From: a virus
Length of the DNA stretch: 33,117 bases
Reading direction: 5' to 3' (one strand)
Virus record (IMG/VR): IMGVR_UViG_3300020438_000139
Location: 1-33,117 of that record
Numbering within the stretch: the stretch's first letter is position 1; every line of letters starts with the position of its first letter. Positions 3,227 through 30,035 of this stretch are shown here, in pieces. Made by a program: the position numbers and the translations under genes. The notes under the pieces are model-generated. The model made no database searches. It saw only the letters and a list, made by a program, of their open reading frames with translations, and was not told where the DNA came from.

Positions 3227-3268
3227 AAAAAAATACTTCTTGACAGTTCATGTCTTTTTGAGTATAAT
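3227..3268 (+). promoter_or_regulatory. Perfect sigma70-type promoter with upstream A-tract box (P1)
   Basis: The -35 TTGACA lies at 3240-3245 and the -10 TATAAT at 3263-3268, with a 17-base spacer. An A7 tract (3227-3233) and TACTTC precede the -35 directly. The predicted start point is about 3275, followed by GGAGA at 3278-3282 and the ATG at 3289, giving a short leader of about 14 bases. The upstream box plus -35 matches the promoter on the other strand at 28712-28753 in 18 of 19 positions. Confidence 0.85.
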
Positions 3269-3288
3269 TTACCACATGGAGAACGAAA

Positions 3289-3630
3289 ATGGCAGCGCCA
3301 AAACACAACCTCACAATAGACCAGGGTTCCGATTTTGTTTTTGATCTAGTAGTGTCTGATAAAGGCGCAATAAAGGATCTTACAGGATACGGCGCTCGTT
3401 CACATATTCGATCAAAGAGAAGTTCTTCAACTCTCGCAGCATCATTTACCTGTACTGTAGTTTCACCTGCTACAAACGGGGTAGTAAAAATGCAGCTAAC
3501 AAACGCTACAAGTTCTGCAATGACGCCCGGACTTTACTTTTACGATTTAGAAATCTTTACCGCCGGCAATAATTTAGTAAAAAGAATTTTACAAGGAGAG
3601 ATAATACTAACTCCCGAAGTAACGAGGTAA
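3289..3630 (+). CDS. Conserved virion protein, Ig-like beta-sandwich
   Basis: Predicted 113 aa, first gene behind promoter P1 with a GGAGA ribosome site. The pattern is TIDQGSDFVFDLVV...IKDLTGYGARSHIRSK...VVKMQLTNATSSAMTPGLYFYDLEIF...RILQGEIILTPEVTR. The combination of QGSDF, DLTGYxAR, ITN/LTNATSSxMxxGxYxYDLE and GxxxxxPEVTR is typical of a small conserved phage protein that resembles the N-terminal domain of baseplate upper proteins (BppU-type). It probably forms a connector between tail tip and fibres; that role is inferred. Confidence 0.65.
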   Translation: MAAPKHNLTIDQGSDFVFDLVVSDKGAIKDLTGYGARSHIRSKRSSSTLAASFTCTVVSPATNGVVKMQLTNATSSAMTPGLYFYDLEIFTAGNNLVKRILQGEIILTPEVTR

Positions 3631-19068: not shown

Positions 19069-19090
19069 AAAGGGGCTTTCGCCCCTTTCT
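19069..19090. terminator. Bidirectional terminator between convergent blocks
   Basis: Stem AAAGGGGC (19069-19076) with GCCCCTTT (19081-19088), loop TTTC. On the minus strand the stem is followed by TTTTTTATTG, a classic T-tract; on the plus strand by CTTATTCTTCT, a poorer one. It lies between the stop codons of two convergent genes, with the minus-strand stop at 19090-19092. Confidence 0.85.
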
Positions 19091-20606: not shown

Positions 20607-20771
20607 TTACCAATTATGAACTACGTTCGCCATGATGAAAAAACAGGTCATAAAGTTGACAAGAACAATCAAAGTTCGTAGTGTTGCTACGATATTGTCG
20701 TGTTCTGCTGTTTTTTCGTCGCTAAAACTACCGATTGTGTATTTCCAGATTGTCCAAATTTTAGCCTTCAC
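20607..20771 (-). CDS. 54-aa membrane protein between nrdA and nrdB
   Basis: Overlaps the nrdA 3' end by 11 bases. The GTG at 20771 gives V/M-KAKIWTIWKYTIGSFSDEK, then TAEHDNIVATLRTLIVLVNF and MTCFFIMANVVHNW. AGGAAGG lies 11 bases upstream; an in-frame TTG six bases earlier is an alternative start at better spacing. Residues of about 30-51 form one clear transmembrane helix, and the N-terminal half is soluble with two Trp. It fills the gap between the two reductase genes exactly (stop 20607, nrdB ATG 20602), which argues for a real gene. Function unknown; membrane tethering of nucleotide synthesis is speculation. Confidence 0.6.
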   Translation of the reverse strand: MKAKIWTIWKYTIGSFSDEKTAEHDNIVATLRTLIVLVNFMTCFFIMANVVHNW

Positions 20772-22530
20772 AAGCAAGACAACCTTCCTCATCCATACTT
20801 TCAAAGATTCGCTGCCGAAGCACTTCATCTGATACTGTTTCTGCTCGCTTTATTGCTTCACTTCTCAAATAATAGAGAGTCTTTACTCCACGCTTCCATG
20901 CCATCATATGAATAGCATGCAGCTCCTGCTTTGATACGTCCGCTGGAAAAAATACATTCAAAGACTGGCTCTGACAGATATGTTCTTGCCTTTCAGCAGC
21001 CATTTCTATGATCCATCTTTGGTCGATTTCCACCGCTGTTTTAAAGACGTCTTTTGTCCAATCATCCAAGAAATCCAAGTGTTGTACAGATCCACTGTTT
21101 GTGACAATGCTTTTCCATACTTCGTCGGTGTCTTGGTCGATATCTTGGAGGATATTCTCAAGATATTCGTTCTTAAGTAAACTGCTCCCCGTTTTAGTTT
21201 TCTGAGTAAAAGCGTTAGCCCTATACGGCTCAATTGAAGGAGAAGTATTACCGCAGATAATACTGCTACTGGCATTAGGAGCAATAGCAAGCAGATGAGC
21301 ATTGCGCACACCATACCCTTTGCCATCAGGACACTCGCCTCGTTCTTCAGCCAACTGTCTTGTTGCACGTACTGCCTCCGATTTGATTCGCTGAAACATC
21401 ATTTTATTTCTTCCAGTCGCCATAGCACTCTCAAAGGGAGTATTATGTCGCTGTAGATATGCATGAAATCCCATAGCACCTAGCCCAAGACTTCGTTCTC
21501 TCATCGCACTATATTTAGCGCGAGAAAGCTGGTCTGGAGCAGAATTTATAAAGTATTCAAGAACATTATCAAGCATACGAATTAAATCAGGTATGAACTG
21601 GTCATTATCCTTCCACTCATCGTATTCTTCCAAATTTACACTTGACAGGCAACATACCGCTGTGCGGTCTTTATCTGTAGGCAATGTAATCTCGGAACAT
21701 AGATTTGATTGATGTACTTTTAATCCAAGTTGTCGTTGAAACTCAGGTACGCTTTCATCTACAGTATCACCAAACATAATGTAAGGTTCCCCTGTTTCAA
21801 CACGATTTTGTATGAGTTTTACCCACAAGGTTTTTGCCGATACAGTTTTTACAATTGTACCAGAATGCGGATCAATCAAATCCCACGAATCATCGTAGCC
21901 TTCAATCTTTGTCGCATTTTCAATAATTGTCATAAAGTCATCAGATATAACGACCCCATGATGCAGATTAGTAGACTTTCGGTTAATATCACCGCCTGTA
22001 GGTTTACGAATATCCAAAAATTCTTCAATCTCTGGATGAGAAATGTCGAGATACGCTGCATAGCTTCCTCTCCGTGTTACGCCTTGTGAGAATGCAAGCA
22101 TCTCCGCATCGACGACTTTCATAAAGGGTATGACACCCGTACTTTCGGAGCCATTGCTCGTTTTCGAGCCTACACTCCGAACCCCGCTCCAGCAGCCACC
22201 AACACCTCCTCCTACAGAAGAAAGAAATGCATTCTCCGTATAATGTGAAGTAATTCCTTCTCTACTATCATCTACATAGTTCAAAAAGCAACTAATTGGT
22301 AGCCCTCGTTTTGTTCCTCCATTCGATAGAACTGGAGTTGAAAACATAAACCAGAGTTTACTTGCATAGTCATACAGTCTTTGTGCGTGTTCTTCATTAT
22401 CTGAAAAAGACAAAGCAGCACGAGCAAATGCATCTTGGGGAGACTTCTCGTCCCCGACTAAATATCTATCTTCCAGAGTTTTTATACTAAACTCAGAAAG
22501 ATACTTATCTCTGCTATAATTAAGCTGCAT
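20761..22530 (-). CDS. nrdA: Ribonucleotide reductase class I, large (alpha) subunit
   Basis: Predicted 589 aa; catalytic subunit of class I reductase. Active-site residues: Cys81 (LPISCFLN), Asn276/Cys278/Glu280 (SNLCSEITLP), Cys293 (AVCCLSSVNL), the Tyr pair in TLYYLRS, and a C-terminal CLACEG with the two shuttle cysteines Cys584 and Cys587. The protein starts directly with the 10-stranded barrel region (YSRDKYLSEFSIKTLEDRYL); the N-terminal ATP-cone found in the 761-aa E. coli enzyme is absent, which predicts loss of dATP feedback inhibition. It overlaps the flap endonuclease gene by 11 bases (ATGCAGCTTAA). Confidence 0.95.
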   Translation of the reverse strand: MQLNYSRDKYLSEFSIKTLEDRYLVGDEKSPQDAFARAALSFSDNEEHAQRLYDYASKLWFMFSTPVLSNGGTKRGLPISCFLNYVDDSREGITSHYTENAFLSSVGGGVGGCWSGVRSVGSKTSNGSESTGVIPFMKVVDAEMLAFSQGVTRRGSYAAYLDISHPEIEEFLDIRKPTGGDINRKSTNLHHGVVISDDFMTIIENATKIEGYDDSWDLIDPHSGTIVKTVSAKTLWVKLIQNRVETGEPYIMFGDTVDESVPEFQRQLGLKVHQSNLCSEITLPTDKDRTAVCCLSSVNLEEYDEWKDNDQFIPDLIRMLDNVLEYFINSAPDQLSRAKYSAMRERSLGLGAMGFHAYLQRHNTPFESAMATGRNKMMFQRIKSEAVRATRQLAEERGECPDGKGYGVRNAHLLAIAPNASSSIICGNTSPSIEPYRANAFTQKTKTGSSLLKNEYLENILQDIDQDTDEVWKSIVTNSGSVQHLDFLDDWTKDVFKTAVEIDQRWIIEMAAERQEHICQSQSLNVFFPADVSKQELHAIHMMAWKRGVKTLYYLRSEAIKRAETVSDEVLRQRIFESMDEEGCLACEG

Positions 22531-23356: not shown

Positions 23357-23792
23357 TTAAAAACTCCACTTTCTCTTCTTTTAACCACTCTTCTGCAAGT
23401 AGCACAGAACACGCCAAAAAATGAATATAGATAAAATGATCTGTATTCTCAGGCGGTACTGGTGTAACAACAAAAACAGGCGACCTATTATACTTAAAAA
23501 ATAACAATGGCTCCTGATTTCCTCCGGCGGCTTGTATCTCTAACTTTTTCCACCATTTTATCAAGTTATTTGTTTTCGGAGCCGTAAATATCTTATCTGA
23601 AAGAGGAGAGCTCTCATAGTTTTTTACTTCTATACAATACTTATTTTTCTCGTGAGGAACATATAAGTCTCCTTTCAAATATTCAAGTGCTCCAGAAGCA
23701 GGAACTCTTTCAAATTTAAGCTTTGTGTGGACTCGTAGCATGTCTCTTACGAGATACTCACCCCTAGCTCCTTTTGCTCTTGAATCTACCAC
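23346..23792 (-). CDS. PD-(D/E)XK nuclease, Holliday junction resolvase-like
   Basis: Predicted 148 aa; the GTG start at 23792 shares its G with the upstream TAG stop. Residues fit an Hjc/RecU-like core: Glu12 in KGARGEYLVRDML, Ser33-Gly34 (PASGALEYLKGDLYVP), Asp42, and Glu55-Val-Lys57 (CIEVKNYE). Such enzymes resolve branched recombination intermediates. The context of SbcC/SbcD, flap endonuclease and SSB supports a recombination or packaging-related resolvase. The C-terminus (EEWLKEEKVEFLNGV) is not informative. An alternative is a generic restriction-like nuclease; the KGARGE start favours the resolvase reading. Confidence 0.7.
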   Translation of the reverse strand: MVDSRAKGARGEYLVRDMLRVHTKLKFERVPASGALEYLKGDLYVPHEKNKYCIEVKNYESSPLSDKIFTAPKTNNLIKWWKKLEIQAAGGNQEPLLFFKYNRSPVFVVTPVPPENTDHFIYIHFLACSVLLAEEWLKEEKVEFLNGV

Positions 23793-24946
23793 TACTTCTC
23801 CAGTATATTTATTATGTCAGTAGCTAAGCCTTCAAACCAAGTGTTAGACCTACCTCTCGTTGTTTCTGCTGCTGTACCGATTCGTATACCACTCGTTTCT
23901 ATAAAGTTGCGAGGGTCATTAGGAACTCCATTCTTATTTACAGTAATTCCTTCTTCTTCTAAACGATCGGCAGCTTCTTTGCCACTAATGTTCTTATCTC
24001 TTAGATCGAGTAAGATAATATGGCTATCAGTTCCTCCTGTAATTACGTTATAGCCCGAACTCATAAATACTTTTGACATGGTTCGAGCATTCTTTATCAC
24101 AGCATCAATATAGTATCCAAAGCTCGGCTCCAATGCTTCCGCGAAACACTGAGCTTTTGCAGCAATCATGTTCATAAGAGGGCCACCTTGTGTGCCAGGA
24201 AAAATAGCACTACTTATTCTTTTTACATAGTTTGGGTTATTCCAAAGAATCATCCCACCTCTTGGCCCTCTTAGAGTTTTATGCGTAGTACTTGTAACTA
24301 CATCCGCATAGGGCAGAGGGTTTGGGTATCTTTTAGCTGCAACTAAACCACTGTAATGTGCCATATCACATAAAAGAAATGCATCGACTTCATCTGCAAT
24401 TTCTTTAAATTTTCCCCAATCTATCGCTCTGGAATAAGCACTCGCACCTGCTACAATCATATCCGGATTGGCTTCTTTTGCAATCTCTCTAATATCATCG
24501 TAGTTAAGGTATCCTTCCTCATCTACTCCATATGTAAAAGGTTTGTAAACTTTACCACTTAGCGTAGGCTTTGCTCCATGACTCAAGTGTCCGCCGCTAG
24601 CAAGATCCATTCCGAGTATTTTATCTCCTGGCTTTAAAAAAGCTTGATAGACCGCTGTGTTCGCATTGACCCCGCTATGAGGCTGTACATTTGAGTAATT
24701 ACTTCCGTATAGTTTACACACTAAACCGTCAGCAAGCAATTCTATTTCATCCATAAACTCGCAACCATTATAGTAGCGACCTCCTGGGTATCCTTCAGCG
24801 TACTTGTTTGTAAATACACTACCACAGAGCTCTCTTATAGGCTCGCTTGCAAAGTTTTCACTTGCAATAAGTTCTATCTGAGTTTCCTGTCTCTCTTCTT
24901 CTTGGAAAAGAATATTTTGAATTCTCTCGTCCATTATAGTTATCAT
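23792..24946 (-). CDS. glyA: Serine hydroxymethyltransferase
   Basis: Predicted 384 aa; PLP enzyme converting serine plus tetrahydrofolate to glycine plus 5,10-methylene-THF. PLP lysine Lys223 lies in TSTTHKTLRGPRGG; Asp194 and His197 in CDMAHYSGLVA; other family blocks are LIASENF, NKYAEGYPGGRYY, NVQPHSGVNAN and TSGIRIGTAAETTRG. The frame is open further upstream, but the ATG at 24946 overlaps the sbcC stop (ATGA) with GGAG five bases ahead and gives the family's normal N-terminus, so I chose it. It is about 30 residues shorter than E. coli GlyA. The methylene-THF product could feed thymidylate synthesis or cytosine hydroxymethylation, but no gene for either is in the window. Confidence 0.95.
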   Translation of the reverse strand: MITIMDERIQNILFQEEERQETQIELIASENFASEPIRELCGSVFTNKYAEGYPGGRYYNGCEFMDEIELLADGLVCKLYGSNYSNVQPHSGVNANTAVYQAFLKPGDKILGMDLASGGHLSHGAKPTLSGKVYKPFTYGVDEEGYLNYDDIREIAKEANPDMIVAGASAYSRAIDWGKFKEIADEVDAFLLCDMAHYSGLVAAKRYPNPLPYADVVTSTTHKTLRGPRGGMILWNNPNYVKRISSAIFPGTQGGPLMNMIAAKAQCFAEALEPSFGYYIDAVIKNARTMSKVFMSSGYNVITGGTDSHIILLDLRDKNISGKEAADRLEEEGITVNKNGVPNDPRNFIETSGIRIGTAAETTRGRSNTWFEGLATDIINILEK

Positions 24947-26742
24947 TGCCACTCCAATGCACTCACATTTCCGTCCTTTATTACTTCTATCTTTTCTAGC
25001 AACGGATGTGTCCATCCATGAGAAACTATATAAGTATTTAAGTCTTCTTTAAGTAATACTTCTACTATCTTTTCTCTTCCCGCTTCATCCAATACATTTA
25101 TTACTTCATCTAGAAATAATATATTTATACGAGACTTGGAGATACTACTCATAAGTTTACGAATAGCAATCAAAGTAGCGGTGTTTACTCTTGCTAGCTC
25201 TCCAGAAGAAAGAGCAAGTATATCTACTACACTTTCGTTATCCGTAATCTGTACATTTAATTTATCGTTTGATACAATAAATTCAAGTGTAAAGCGCCCG
25301 TCTGACAGTTCTGCCAGATAAGTATTTGTGAGTTCTTCTAACTCTTTTACTAAGTTTTCTATTTTGTAAGCAAGAAGTCCGTTTGTACTAAAAGCTTTTT
25401 TCAACGTTTCTAGATTAGCATCTAACTCTGTTATCTCTTTTAATGTCTCAGAAGCTTTATTTAGTTTTTCTATAAACCCATCTGTTTGGTCTTGAATTAT
25501 TTCTATTCGTGTATTTTCCCTCGTACGCTTTTCATTCTCCATTGCGATTCGAGATATTTCTTTTTTTGCACTCTGTAGTTCGATTTGAAGACTGGCCAAG
25601 CGAGACTCAAGCTGTCCTTTATCCAAAATACTCGCCGGTAGATTAGGCTCAATTGATCTATACAGATCCTCCCAATCTTTTTGAAGTTTATTTTTTCTAT
25701 CGAATTCAGTATTGTTTCTATGAATCTTTGTAACTTTCTCTTCATTGTACTTCTTTCTTCGCTCAAGGTCATCTAGTAGTGCTTTTTCGCTGTCTATCAA
25801 GTTTTGTTTAAACTCAGTATCTATTACTTGCTCACAGGTTGGACAAAATCCATCCAGTTTTTCGAGTTTTGTAAGCATCTTACTCGCAGCAGCTCTAGCA
25901 CCTTCTATTTGTCCTAGGTGTTTTTGAAATTCATCAGGAGATACTTTCTCCGTAACTTCTATACTATTTATCTCTTCAAGATCTATACCAGCTAGCATTT
26001 CTCTATACTGATTATTCCTTAGAATTTTTTTGTTTTTTTCAGAAATATTTTCAAGTTCTACTGAGAGTGAACGGAACTCTTTCTCTTCTTTATCCGTATT
26101 TATTTCTAAATCCAACATAGGTAGTATATTGGTACTCTCTAATTTATTTGTATTCAACCACTTTTCAACAGTTGCAATTTCCGAGGTCACTTCAATCATT
26201 TTGTTTGAAGCAGTCCGTGCAGCTTCTTTAAAAACTTCAAAGAGCTGAACATAGTCATCAAGGTGTAACAGGTCAATAAGAAACTTTTTTCTATTCGTAT
26301 CTGTTGCGGTTAGAAATTGTAGACTTGCATTCGTACTTTGATATACAAGCTGCGAAAAGGTTTTGAAATCAATACCTATTATTTCCTGAATAGTCTTGTA
26401 AGTGTTTGTAGCTGTATGACTAGAGATGTCCTCTCCATTCTTTGTAAGTTTTACTTTAATACTACTACTTCTTTTTACGTCAACTATATACTCATTTCCA
26501 TCTTTTTCAAATACTAACCAAATAGTATAACCATTACTCATGTACCGATTTGGTATATCTGCTTTCTTTATACCTTTTGAGTTTTTATTGTATAAAGCTT
26601 CTTCAATAATTAACGGTATGGAAGATTTACCCATACCGTTAGTACCAATAATCTGTGTGACTGTATCAATATCAAGTCTTAGATTATTATTTGGTCCGTA
26701 GCTGAAACAATTATCCCAACTGAGTTGTTTGAGCGTAATCAT
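24943..26742 (-). CDS. SbcC/Rad50-like nuclease ATPase subunit (T4 gp46 type)
   Basis: Predicted 599 aa, close to T4 gp46 and much shorter than E. coli SbcC. Walker A GTNGMGKSS (33-41); Q-loop at Gln131 (FSQLVYQ); two long coiled-coil arms; a zinc hook Cys300-Pro-Thr-Cys303; ABC signature LSSGELARVNT; Walker B and D-loop in INILFLDEVINVLDEAG. Partners with the adjacent SbcD-like subunit to process DNA ends for recombination-dependent replication. It overlaps sbcD by 32 bases and glyA by four. The short arms imply a compact complex. Confidence 0.9.
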   Translation of the reverse strand: MITLKQLSWDNCFSYGPNNNLRLDIDTVTQIIGTNGMGKSSIPLIIEEALYNKNSKGIKKADIPNRYMSNGYTIWLVFEKDGNEYIVDVKRSSSIKVKLTKNGEDISSHTATNTYKTIQEIIGIDFKTFSQLVYQSTNASLQFLTATDTNRKKFLIDLLHLDDYVQLFEVFKEAARTASNKMIEVTSEIATVEKWLNTNKLESTNILPMLDLEINTDKEEKEFRSLSVELENISEKNKKILRNNQYREMLAGIDLEEINSIEVTEKVSPDEFQKHLGQIEGARAAASKMLTKLEKLDGFCPTCEQVIDTEFKQNLIDSEKALLDDLERRKKYNEEKVTKIHRNNTEFDRKNKLQKDWEDLYRSIEPNLPASILDKGQLESRLASLQIELQSAKKEISRIAMENEKRTRENTRIEIIQDQTDGFIEKLNKASETLKEITELDANLETLKKAFSTNGLLAYKIENLVKELEELTNTYLAELSDGRFTLEFIVSNDKLNVQITDNESVVDILALSSGELARVNTATLIAIRKLMSSISKSRINILFLDEVINVLDEAGREKIVEVLLKEDLNTYIVSHGWTHPLLEKIEVIKDGNVSALEWQ

Positions 26743-27670
26743 TATACGTTCCTAAAATGTCAAATATTTTATCTTCTGGAAGCTCTAGAATATATGTTAA
26801 ATACTCTACTAGCTCGTCTTCAAGTGTCATTTCTTTATCTAATAGAAGAGTTGCTTCAGCACTTCTTTTTACTACTTTCTTATCTAAAAGTTCTGAGTTT
26901 TCTACTGCTGCAAGTTCTTGTATATTTCCTTCTATCTCATAAATTGTATGATGATAGGTTGTAGGAATCATGTCTGCCGGATCTGTAACTGTTTTTCTTA
27001 TAAGCTGTGGCAAAGTAAAAGGCCACCAGTTCCAAGACCAATCTTTTGGGTCTATAAGTAGATATCCTGTTTCGACTTCTTGTCTGTGAAAAGATGTAGT
27101 CATAGGACTACCAGGATACACTATATTTCTTTGTGTATTACTATGTGCGTGTAAGTCTCCTGCAAATACTACAGGAAACGAATCAAACCTCGATAAGTCT
27201 ACCTCGGGAGTTACGTGCGGAGGTATTTCACCCCGCACATGAGTGAAAAGAGGCATAGAGGTATTGAAGTGCTCTATACTACCTTTTCGGTGTAACTCTG
27301 CATAAGGCAGGACGCTAAAGCCCATATCCTCATCCACATACGAAATATCAACTATATTTACGAGAGGGTTTATGTCTCGCGATGCTTGTTTTAGCTGAGA
27401 GAAAAAAGTACGATTTTTACGAGTAGCTTCATGGTTTCCGTCAAAGATAAGAGTAGGCTTCTTTACATTTCTGAGAAAAGAAAAGTATAAAGCTAATTCT
27501 TCCATATTTGGAATACGGTCAAAAAGATCTCCACCAATAATGTGCATATCACAGCTTTTTGCTTGATAGTGTACTTGGTCAAAGAACTCTTGGTATCTTT
27601 TTTTCGCCCACTCAACTGGGACATTCTTCTGTCCCAGTTTTATGTGCCAATCCGCTGTAAATAAAATCAC
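26711..27670 (-). CDS. SbcD/Mre11-like nuclease subunit (T4 gp47 type)
   Basis: Predicted 319 aa with a GTG start overlapping the ssb stop (GTGA). Calcineurin-like phosphoesterase motifs in order: Asp7 and His9 (TADWHI), Asp48 (IIGGDLFDR), Asn79-His80 (FDGNHEA), a His in LFTHVRGEIPP, and AGDLHAHSN. These bind two metal ions. The C-terminal 90 residues are acidic and helical, consistent with the Rad50-binding region. Together with the downstream ATPase gene it forms the phage end-processing nuclease. Confidence 0.9.
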   Translation of the reverse strand: MILFTADWHIKLGQKNVPVEWAKKRYQEFFDQVHYQAKSCDMHIIGGDLFDRIPNMEELALYFSFLRNVKKPTLIFDGNHEATRKNRTFFSQLKQASRDINPLVNIVDISYVDEDMGFSVLPYAELHRKGSIEHFNTSMPLFTHVRGEIPPHVTPEVDLSRFDSFPVVFAGDLHAHSNTQRNIVYPGSPMTTSFHRQEVETGYLLIDPKDWSWNWWPFTLPQLIRKTVTDPADMIPTTYHHTIYEIEGNIQELAAVENSELLDKKVVKRSAEATLLLDKEMTLEDELVEYLTYILELPEDKIFDILGTYNDYAQTTQLG

Positions 27671-28293
27671 GCTATTTTAAACTCGTCTTCAATAGTTTCG
27701 TCAATTTCTTCTGAACCCGCGTCACGAATACGATCTAATAACTCTTTTTGAGCATCAGCAGTAGGACGAGCCATAACTTCATCCATAGACTTAAGGTCAG
27801 AAACCAATTCTAGTTCAGTTTCATTCAATGCACGAGTCTTGCACTTGAGTGCTTGCAATTGGTACTCTACATTGTAGGGCAGAGGGCCAGTCTTCACACG
27901 CTTGAATTGAACATCCCAGCCTGTTTCCACATCCGTAGGATCGCCTAAATCTTCTGCTGCGGTAATGATTTGTTCCCACAACTTCTTTTTCAAGTTTACA
28001 ACTTTGACTTGACCATTGTCAATACATTGAGTTGCATAGCTCCAACCACACTTAAGATCGGGATAGTATTCACGAACCCAATCTTTTTCCATGTTGTTAA
28101 AAGCTTCTTTGTTTCTGTCAAAGGACAAACACTCTAGTGGAATGTTTTTGTCATTTTCACCTTTTACCCAGTAAACATACCGAGCAAGAATGTCTCCGAC
28201 AAGTCGAAAACTGTTGTCACCATCTACATATTGAAAGCTGGTAATGCTTGATTTTTGAGCAGCACCTTTGTGCTGGTTGAATTGAATAGCCAT
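27667..28293 (-). CDS. Putative ssDNA-binding protein, gp32-like
   Basis: Predicted 208 aa. The central part (DNSFRLVGDILARYVYWVKG, later GWDVQFKRVKTGPLPYNVEY) looks like an OB-fold in the style of phage gp32-like proteins, rich in aromatic and basic residues. The C-terminus is acidic (AGSEEIDETIEDEFKIA), the usual protein-interaction tail of phage SSBs. No zinc-binding cluster as in T4 gp32. The operon position, just ahead of SbcD/SbcC, supports the call. The start shares one base with the upstream stop (TAATG). Confidence 0.65.
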   Translation of the reverse strand: MAIQFNQHKGAAQKSSITSFQYVDGDNSFRLVGDILARYVYWVKGENDKNIPLECLSFDRNKEAFNNMEKDWVREYYPDLKCGWSYATQCIDNGQVKVVNLKKKLWEQIITAAEDLGDPTDVETGWDVQFKRVKTGPLPYNVEYQLQALKCKTRALNETELELVSDLKSMDEVMARPTADAQKELLDRIRDAGSEEIDETIEDEFKIA

Positions 28294-28709
28294 TAATGGA
28301 TCTCCTCTGGTTTGACTTCTTCATAGAGAAAATGAACTTGTTCATCTTCATCTAGTGTAAGTAGCCTATTTGTTTCTATTACTAAATGTGGGTCAGACCC
28401 TACTCCTGGAACAAGAATAGCATCTAACGTTACCGTGCCTATTGCTTCATATTCTGCGTGTGAGCGTAAGCTGCACATAGCAATATATTGAGCAATTTCA
28501 CGATACGTGTACTTATGAGAGTGGTGCAGAAGTATATCGGGGTGCAGCATGAAACTGTCCCCGGAAAAGTCTATCTGAGAATATTTGTATATCTTATCCC
28601 ATTTATTTTTGGGTACTTGCTTTTCAACAAGCATACGGAAGATACGAACGGTGTTTACGACCTTTCCTTCCGCATGAATACAGATTTTCTGCCAGTCAAA
28701 TAAGAACAT
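28293..28709 (-). CDS. Hypothetical protein preceding ssb
   Basis: Predicted 138 aa. Contains LFDWQKICIHAEGKVVNTVR, NKWDKIYKYSQIDFSGDSFM, and HKYTYREIAQYIAMCSLRSH, followed by TVTLDAILVPGVG. I recognise no enzyme family; predicted alpha/beta, soluble. It is translationally coupled to ssb, suggesting a replication role. The annotated ATG (28709) lies only two bases after the -10 element of promoter P2, so it would not be in transcripts from P2. Either the gene is translated from read-through mRNA of the helicase genes or a later start (Met26) is used. Confidence 0.65.
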   Translation of the reverse strand: MFLFDWQKICIHAEGKVVNTVRIFRMLVEKQVPKNKWDKIYKYSQIDFSGDSFMLHPDILLHHSHKYTYREIAQYIAMCSLRSHAEYEAIGTVTLDAILVPGVGSDPHLVIETNRLLTLDEDEQVHFLYEEVKPEEIH

Positions 28710-28711
28710 AT

Positions 28712-28753
28712 ATTATACTAAAAATTAACCATCATGTCAAGAACTATTTTTTT
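28712..28753 (-). promoter_or_regulatory. Perfect sigma70-type promoter with upstream A-tract box (P2)
   Basis: On the minus strand, TTGACA (28740-28735), a 17-base spacer, and TATAAT (28717-28712). Upstream lies A7 (28753-28747) then TAGTTC. AAAAAAATAGTTCTTGACA here and AAAAAAATACTTCTTGACA at 3227-3245 differ at one base; both spacers end with T-rich sequence plus AG before TATAAT. Predicted start near 28705. It would drive ssb, sbcDC, glyA and the nrd genes. Confidence 0.85.
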
Positions 28754-28759
28754 ATAGTT
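28742..28759. other. Small inverted repeat overlapping promoter box
   Basis: AACTAT (28742-28747) and ATAGTT (28754-28759) flank a T6 stretch. It overlaps the helicase stop codon and the A-tract of P2. As a terminator it would be weak (all A/T stem, no T-run after it); as an operator it is possible. Confidence 0.4.
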
Positions 28760-30035
28760 GTTTGATTTCATATCCCTGTTTCATGTAGTGACCAATGCGA
28801 TTGGACGCCTGTCTTTTCGCAGTATTCCCTCTCAGGTGTATGTCAACAATCACAGGGTCTCTTTTATTCTCTTCCTTTCGTATAACTCTACCAATTAACT
28901 GTGTTAAGAGTGGTTCATTATTTACTGGAGTTCCAAGAATGAGACAACTCAGATTGTTTACTGAGATGCCTTCCGAAAAGATAGCTTGAGTTCCGAAAAG
29001 AATGTTCTTTTTACCGTTTCTCACAGCAGACAGGTACTCTTCTCTCTCCTCATGTGCTACCTCGCCCGTAATACATATAGCATCTTCGCCTGCCAGTTCG
29101 GCGCAAGCTTTCAGAAAATGTACACGGTCACTTACGACCAAAACTACATGGCCTTTTGCGGCGTAGGCCGCTGCAGCCATAGCAATGGTGTGTCTATACT
29201 CGTTATCATTTGCGAGTTTTGTTACTTTATTTGCCCAAGGTGTTCTAGCTCCATCCATAAATCTTATTTCTGAACGAATAACATGAACACTTGGCATCAT
29301 GAAGTTTTCTTTTGGGGGCTTAAAGACATTATGCCCAAAGTAATCACGAAAGACTACATGCTTACCGTCTTTTCTTTCTATCGTGCCTGATAAACCTATC
29401 TTATACCTTGCATAGTTTGAGTCTATTATTTTAGAAAACGTCGGAGACGAGACATGATGCATTTCATCCAAGATGATTGTACCAAAAGCATGGCGTATAG
29501 CCGGAATGTTACGGTAAAGAGTTTGAGTGTTGCCAATGACAATAGGAGCAGACAAATCCATGCTCCCGCTTCCAATAATACTTGGTTTAAATCCATAGAC
29601 TTTTTCTACCTCTTTTGCCCACTGATTTCTTAGTGGAACTGTATGAGTTACTACAAGTGTTTTCTGTCCAAGCTTACCTGCAATTGCAAGACCTGTAAAA
29701 GTCTTTCCCCAACTGACCCATGCGTTAATTATAGCGTTATCTTCAATTCCATCATAAACTTCCTTTTGACTTTCTCGTAAATCAAACTTAAACTCTGGAA
29801 GTTCTACAGGTATAGTTTCTCGCTTATCAACTATTTCATAGTCTTCTGGTATCAAATCCGTTCTTCCGACTGGAATACTCACTAGATTTGCTTTTATTCT
29901 TGCCATATTCTTTATAACAAGAGGAGGGTCTGTTGGATTATATGTCGGTATAGTATAAGTAAGCTCTTTGTTTAGAACTTCCTTATAACTTTCTGTTATC
30001 TCTAAATATATTCGATTGCTTATAACGGCTTTCAT
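28752..30035 (-). CDS. SF2 DNA helicase, UvsW-like
   Basis: Predicted 427 aa. Motifs: Gln90 region (LRESQKEVYDGI), a Walker A variant NAWVSWGKTFTG (Lys111), DEMHH at 190-194, a SGTIERKDG motif III/IIIa, and QLIGRVIRKEENK as motif VI. The N-terminal 80 residues form a separate beta-rich domain as in T4 UvsW. The likely role is remodelling branched recombination or replication intermediates. The glycine-poor Walker A (WVSWGKT instead of TGSGKT) is unusual but keeps the GKT. The gene overlaps the small ORF upstream by four bases. Confidence 0.87.
   Translation of the reverse strand: MKAVISNRIYLEITESYKEVLNKELTYTIPTYNPTDPPLVIKNMARIKANLVSIPVGRTDLIPEDYEIVDKRETIPVELPEFKFDLRESQKEVYDGIEDNAIINAWVSWGKTFTGLAIAGKLGQKTLVVTHTVPLRNQWAKEVEKVYGFKPSIIGSGSMDLSAPIVIGNTQTLYRNIPAIRHAFGTIILDEMHHVSSPTFSKIIDSNYARYKIGLSGTIERKDGKHVVFRDYFGHNVFKPPKENFMMPSVHVIRSEIRFMDGARTPWANKVTKLANDNEYRHTIAMAAAAYAAKGHVVLVVSDRVHFLKACAELAGEDAICITGEVAHEEREEYLSAVRNGKKNILFGTQAIFSEGISVNNLSCLILGTPVNNEPLLTQLIGRVIRKEENKRDPVIVDIHLRGNTAKRQASNRIGHYMKQGYEIKQL

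Follow-up and report, generated by a model that had tools for sequence, protein, structure and literature searches.

A recurrent, strong sigma70-type promoter family predicted in uncultured relatives of bacteriophage T5

Introduction

Why should two promoters on opposite strands of a phage genome fragment, one facing fibre genes and the other replication genes, share a perfect core and almost the same upstream box? The question is raised by a 33-kb virus record (IMGVR_UViG_3300020438_000139 in IMG/VR; its 33,117 nucleotides, taken whole, are called the window here). A sequence-only reading of this DNA proposed a phage-specific promoter family, with the box acting as a built-in UP element or as the site of a phage regulator, through which structural and replication genes would be co-regulated. 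The comparisons with related phage DNA described here bear on who reads these promoters, what the box contributes and how early and late genes are told apart.

The window and its relatives

By its gene content, the window is a fragment of an uncultured phage related to T5, with a Demerecviridae-like replication operon. This minus-strand operon encodes DNA polymerase, PhoH, helicase, PHROG4258, ssb, SbcD, SbcC, serine hydroxymethyltransferase (SHMT), RusA, exonuclease, NrdA and NrdB, ordered as in T5 and Vibrio phage pVp-1, except that PhoH, SHMT and RNR sit elsewhere. The helicase is ~43% identical to those of T5-like Vibrio phages, T5 homologues are found on 67 of 78 loci with the box, and contigs with the same promoter encode T5-type TerL (47-49%), portal (~40%), D5 (~50%) and ligase subunits. 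Among GenBank phages, none is close at the DNA level to the first 25 kb of the window; Rfam and tRNA searches of the window gave no matches.

Two genes of the operon deserve separate mention. The SHMT gene (23792-25015, minus strand; PF00464, E=3.6e-142) lies between sbcC and rusA and is labelled only as a methyltransferase by PHROGs. NrdA (20761-22530, minus strand) reaches 66% identity with its Pelagibacter phage counterparts, the remaining operon being T5-like. The lineage is probably marine, judging from marine MAG bins among the box matches, from the RNR shared with Pelagibacter phages and from several IMG/VR sample numbers that we take to be marine. Two routes to a host were rejected: MAG contigs with the box, because the 40 matches are scattered over Clostridia and unrelated marine bins, and RNR identity to Pelagibacter phages, because phage Kolga, whose gene content differs, encodes an RNA polymerase of its own.

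Two promoters with one upstream box

The features around the two sites are as follows.

3227..3239, plus strand: A7 (3227-3233) and TACTTC box (3234-3239) of the fibre promoter, read directly
3240-3245 and 3263-3268, plus strand: TTGACA and TATAAT, with a 17-nt spacer, of the late-type core promoter of the fibre cluster; conserved in closer relatives
3269..3288, plus strand: discriminator TTACCA (late-class type, by sequence), predicted transcription start at 3274-3276, GGAG Shine-Dalgarno
3289..3630, plus strand: 113-aa fibre-assembly gene (ATG 3289), first of the fibre operon, homologue of the L-shaped tail fibre assembly protein (phrog_3304, E=6.7e-15)
27667..28293, minus strand: single-strand DNA-binding protein gene (ssb), T5 D11 homologue with its own GGAG ribosome site (phrog_1607, E=1e-28; T5 D11, E=5e-8)
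28293..28709, minus strand: PHROG4258 gene (MFLFDW...; phrog_4258, E=1.1e-18)
28704..28711, minus strand: early-type discriminator ATATGTTC, by sequence, with the early-class pattern A-T-A
28740-28735 and 28717-28712, minus strand: TTGACA and TATAAT, with a 17-nt spacer, of the early-type core promoter, positional homologue of T5 P31A/P31B (relatives, T5 annotation)
28741..28753, minus strand: A7 (28753-28747) and TAGTTC box (28746-28741), the first A's overlapping the TAA stop of the helicase gene
28752..30035, minus strand: D10-type helicase gene, upstream neighbour of the minus-strand promoter (phrog_16, E=1.4e-67)

The window contains exactly two perfect TTGACA-N17-TATAAT cores, at 3240-3268 (plus) and 28740-28712 (minus), where the sequence-only reading had placed them; each has 12 of 12 hexamer letters and a spacer within the range of strong sigma70-type promoters (TTGACA, 16-18 bp, TATAAT). 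Both have A7-TA[C/G]TTC directly 5' of TTGACA. The common 19-base stretch, AAAAAAATA[C/G]TTCTTGACA, differs at one position, and each spacer closes with a T-run and then [G]AG, features that the earlier description had listed and that are plainly there. The plus-strand promoter precedes the fibre genes (3289-3630 on), and the minus-strand promoter the PHROG4258 gene, ssb, sbcD, sbcC, the SHMT gene, rusA, the exonuclease gene and nrdA/nrdB.

Perfect -35 and -10 elements had been called rare in such DNA, and they are: these two are the only TTGACA-N15-19-TATAAT matches in the window, against 0.04 expected, and none of 100 dinucleotide shuffles reached two. Other promoter-like sites are common in this AT-rich DNA, most of them scoring 9/12, at about the frequency seen in shuffles, and they lend some colour to the idea that the two arose by chance or are ordinary promoters of AT-rich DNA that share nothing special; the expected number and the comparative data given below refute this idea, to which we attach practically no weight.

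Three smaller observations concern the surroundings. An ATG at 3276, near the predicted start of the fibre promoter transcript, was considered as a small ORF and rejected: the frame is not conserved and the triplet is part of an ATGGAG Shine-Dalgarno stretch. Fibre promoters (loci L083-L099) often share ATGTC-like letters near spacer positions 5-9, which in the window read GTTCATGTC. A terminator-like hairpin, AAAGGGGCTTTCGCCCCTTT, occupies 19069-19088, where the late and early operons converge; a bidirectional terminator is annotated at this place in T5.

Recurrence of the box

Further copies of the promoter were looked for in relatives and were found at 78 of 80 orthologous sites, in many copies per relative, and in at least 120 IMG/VR stretches. 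The IMG/VR scan used the full pattern, and its same-composition scramble (TTC to CTT) gave 0; a genome collection of 257 Gb held 40 box matches. Among loci fetched by protein similarity only, the box playing no part in their choice, 79 of 89 distinct perfect cores carried the box by a strict test; when cores were made non-redundant, 27 of 33 passed, and inspection by eye showed a near variant of the box in nearly all others, one core being a clear exception. The spacing was N17 in all 114 boxed sites. Copy numbers are 12-18 in each of five relatives of 45-90 kb, 8 in a 96-kb relative and one in another 96-kb record, against 0-1 copies of a reversed control pattern in large relatives (0 for the five of 45-90 kb). 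On these counts, the box is a genome-wide promoter feature of the phage lineage.

The two sites of the window were also followed through orthologous loci. The minus-strand promoter is in place in 78 of 80 helicase relatives, with a spacing of 17 in 78/78, a spacer sequence that varies freely and TAGTTC in 64 of the 78 (near variants in the remainder). The two exceptions, L027 and L059, have other DNA at the promoter position; in L027, a promoter and the PHROG4258 gene are found further downstream. The fibre promoter was compared across 31 fibre-gene loci with readable upstream DNA: the A-tract, TTGAC[A/T], N17, TATAAT and a related box are kept in about half, the closer loci keeping the promoter and the distant ones not.

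In the site profile, T, A, T, T and C of TA-N-TTC are far more constant than the flanks; C at -1 and A content served as criteria for choosing the profiled sites, which makes those columns circular; the box T, A, T and T were not selected. The C directly 5' of TTGACA is near-invariant, which is stricter than known polymerase preferences.

Comparison with T5 promoters

The T5 annotation has promoters P31A and P31B at the end of D10, in the same place as the minus-strand site of the window. T5 early promoters (P31A/P31B, P-N25, P-H207 and others; Demerecviridae) resemble the marine family in their place behind the D10 helicase gene, in an A-tract just 5' of -35, in N17, TATAAT and an AT-rich discriminator and in having many copies per genome; pVp-1 (Ermolyevavirinae) shares the layout, the operon order and a promoter at the end of the helicase gene. 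The plan is alike and the letters differ. The -35 element is TTGCTT or TTGCTA in T5 and TTGCTA in pVp-1, whereas the marine consensus is TTGACA; the T5 consensus A5-TTTAN-TTGCTT is replaced by A5-TA-N-TTC-TTGACA; the A-tract lies at -10 to -6 before the -35 hexamer in T5 and pVp-1 and one base further upstream, at -11 to -7, in the marine family. TANTTC occurs in 1 of 33 T5 promoters and 0 of 19 pVp-1 promoters, and is thus specific to the marine lineage. Judged from these comparisons, this is a real, well-supported promoter family, a variant of the T5 kind and not the T5 promoter itself; a literature search found no earlier description of it in the papers covered.

In an UP element, the proximal subsite bound by alpha-CTD is an A-tract directly 5' of -35, within alpha-CTD binding range, and the marine A-tract is placed likewise. 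The position and conservation of the A-tract thus suit an UP-like element read by the host RNA polymerase, as in T5. The earlier proposal of a phage-specific family with a built-in element of this kind is supported by the conservation, the copy number and the T5-like plan. To our knowledge, the UP consensus has no counterpart of the constant TA-N-TTC that separates the A-tract from -35.

Alternatively, TA-N-TTC could serve as an operator: a DNA-binding protein encoded by the phage would bind it and switch these promoters on during infection. Such a factor would account for letters far more constant than their flanks, the near-invariant C before TTGACA leaves room for it, and T5 and pVp-1 promoters do without TANTTC. 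However, the box keeps a fixed place relative to -35, accompanies consensus hexamers and is found in early and late promoters alike, and T5, with the same A-tract plan, uses host sigma70 for all its promoter classes (Klimuk et al., 2020; PMC7472727); we consider a phage regulator unlikely.

Early and late discriminators

According to Klimuk et al. (2020; PMC7472727), T5 promoter classes differ mainly in the discriminator and gpT5.026 weakens the contact between polymerase and discriminator; how T5-like phages, using a single host polymerase, pass from early to late transcription is described there as unknown. Homologues of T5.026, A1 and A2 were not found in the relatives' fragments, which, being fragments, do not imply absence from the genomes.

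Of 356 non-redundant sites, 230 could be classed from whichever T5 homologue (or window gene) lies nearest downstream, class meaning the timing of the T5 homologue. The -10 hexamer is followed by A at 201 of the 206 early sites vs 4 of the 24 late ones (Fisher 1.7e-20; 4e-17 when restricted to genes within 700 nt), p-values that are too small because the sites are related; counted by orthologous gene, the split is 9:0 vs 1:4 (p=0.005). Early sites have A, usually ATA, directly after TATAAT, and late sites mostly T, G or C; late sites with A lie upstream of pb2, terL and T5.156 homologues. The window follows the split, with ATATGT at the replication site (28712) and TTACCA at the fibre site (3240). 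The first discriminator base is by itself a poor guide to class in T5, where P-G25 has A and P-J5 has G.

These data weigh on the claim that structural and replication genes form one temporal class, co-regulated through the two sites. The core hexamers are identical and the box almost so, as that claim supposes, but box and core are common to early and late promoters, and the base after -10 is what separates the two. With discriminators that differ in a way that tracks the early/late split across relatives, and with T5 as a precedent for classes kept apart (Klimuk et al., 2020; PMC7472727), co-regulation through the box finds no support here and appears very unlikely.

Start codons at and within promoters

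Among 189 non-redundant sites not selected for offset, an ATG with an open frame follows the -10 hexamer at 6 nt in 33 cases, at 7 nt in 7, at 3 nt in 1 and at 4-5 nt in none, where a background of ~1% per position predicts ~2; offset-6 counts in the 356-site early/late set are biased, some of its loci having been fetched with the ATG-at-6 pattern, a bias from which the 189-site count is free. In a separate IMG/VR scan, ATG stood at 6 nt in at least 120 stretches and at 5 nt in 15. This sharp peak, an indirect indication, would place +1 at 7 nt past the -10 hexamer, with AUG as the first codon at the very 5' end of these mRNAs. Predicted leaderless genes with no Shine-Dalgarno and ATG exactly 6 nt past TATAAT are found at loci L115-L192 and L302-L355 (e.g., L126, L132, L136, L179). 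A second class of genes has Shine-Dalgarno leaders, mostly of 19-38 nt. ATG at 6 or 7 nt, seen in many marine genes, occurs at none of the T5 or pVp-1 promoters scanned, and the literature search found no report of leaderless genes in T5-like phages among the papers covered. Lambda cI is made from PRM as a leaderless mRNA, with ATG at about +1 and no Shine-Dalgarno; it is a single gene, whereas in the marine lineage predicted leaderless starts recur across many genes.

PHROG4258 is a different case. Its ATG (28709) lies 2 nt past the -10 hexamer, upstream of any normal transcription start; the canonical start of the 28712 promoter would fall within codon 2, near 28705. The start codon of the gene, ATG or, three times, GTG, lies 0-2 nt after TATAAT in each of the 78 promoter-bearing relatives (loci L003-L082). 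Codons 2-9 have entropies of 0.58, 0.37 and 1.04 at codon positions 1-3, and Trp6 is kept in 60/60, a pattern of variability which shows that the N-terminus is translated from that start codon. A shifted -10 that would give PHROG4258 a leaderless start was sought by eye and rejected, no consistent hexamer lying 5-7 nt before the ATG. Since a normal start would cut off its start codon, PHROG4258 is probably made from read-through RNA, the 28712 promoter serving ssb; ssb, whose Shine-Dalgarno is kept in 57 of 59 relatives, is likely the first gene translated from this promoter.

Enteric T5-like phages have an ordinary leader at the PHROG4258 position, and pVp-1 a normal leader before the next gene, in contrast to the marine lineage with its start codon within the promoter. 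In T5 (AY543070, ~75646; L236, ~3646), an apparent ATT stands where Klebsiella phage 150049 has the ATG of its PHROG4258 homologue (AAAAATTAAATTC vs AAAAATGAAATTC); T5 annotates only a shorter ORF with a later start, T5.125, in this interval.

Probable roles of the box and the discriminator

Taken with the T5 precedent, the comparisons make it very probable that the two sites belong to a family of strong sigma70-type promoters spread through the genomes of uncultured marine T5 relatives, a family in which the box would confer strength and the discriminator timing. The promoters are most likely read by the host RNA polymerase: sigma would bind the consensus -35 and -10 elements, 17 bp apart, and the upstream A-tract and TA-N-TTC would together serve as a built-in UP-like and -35-flanking element. 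The box would mark phage promoters as strong and set no timing; the timing class would most likely be read from the discriminator. On the strength of their discriminator classes, the 28712 site may be regarded as an early promoter feeding ssb, recombination and nucleotide genes and the 3240 site as a late promoter for the fibre operon. An extended version, in which a host polymerase modified by the phage reads the discriminator base as an early/late code, many mRNAs have their AUG at +1 and PHROG4258 is expressed from read-through RNA only, seems to us evenly balanced between right and wrong.

For the T5-like phages, a widespread, apparently marine lineage in which box, -35 and -10 are constant while the discriminator follows the class offers a comparison made by nature. 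It directs attention to the discriminator, and promoter swaps can test it. For the uncultured phages themselves, the fixed promoter is an easy handle for finding and annotating them, including leaderless starts that gene finders may misplace.
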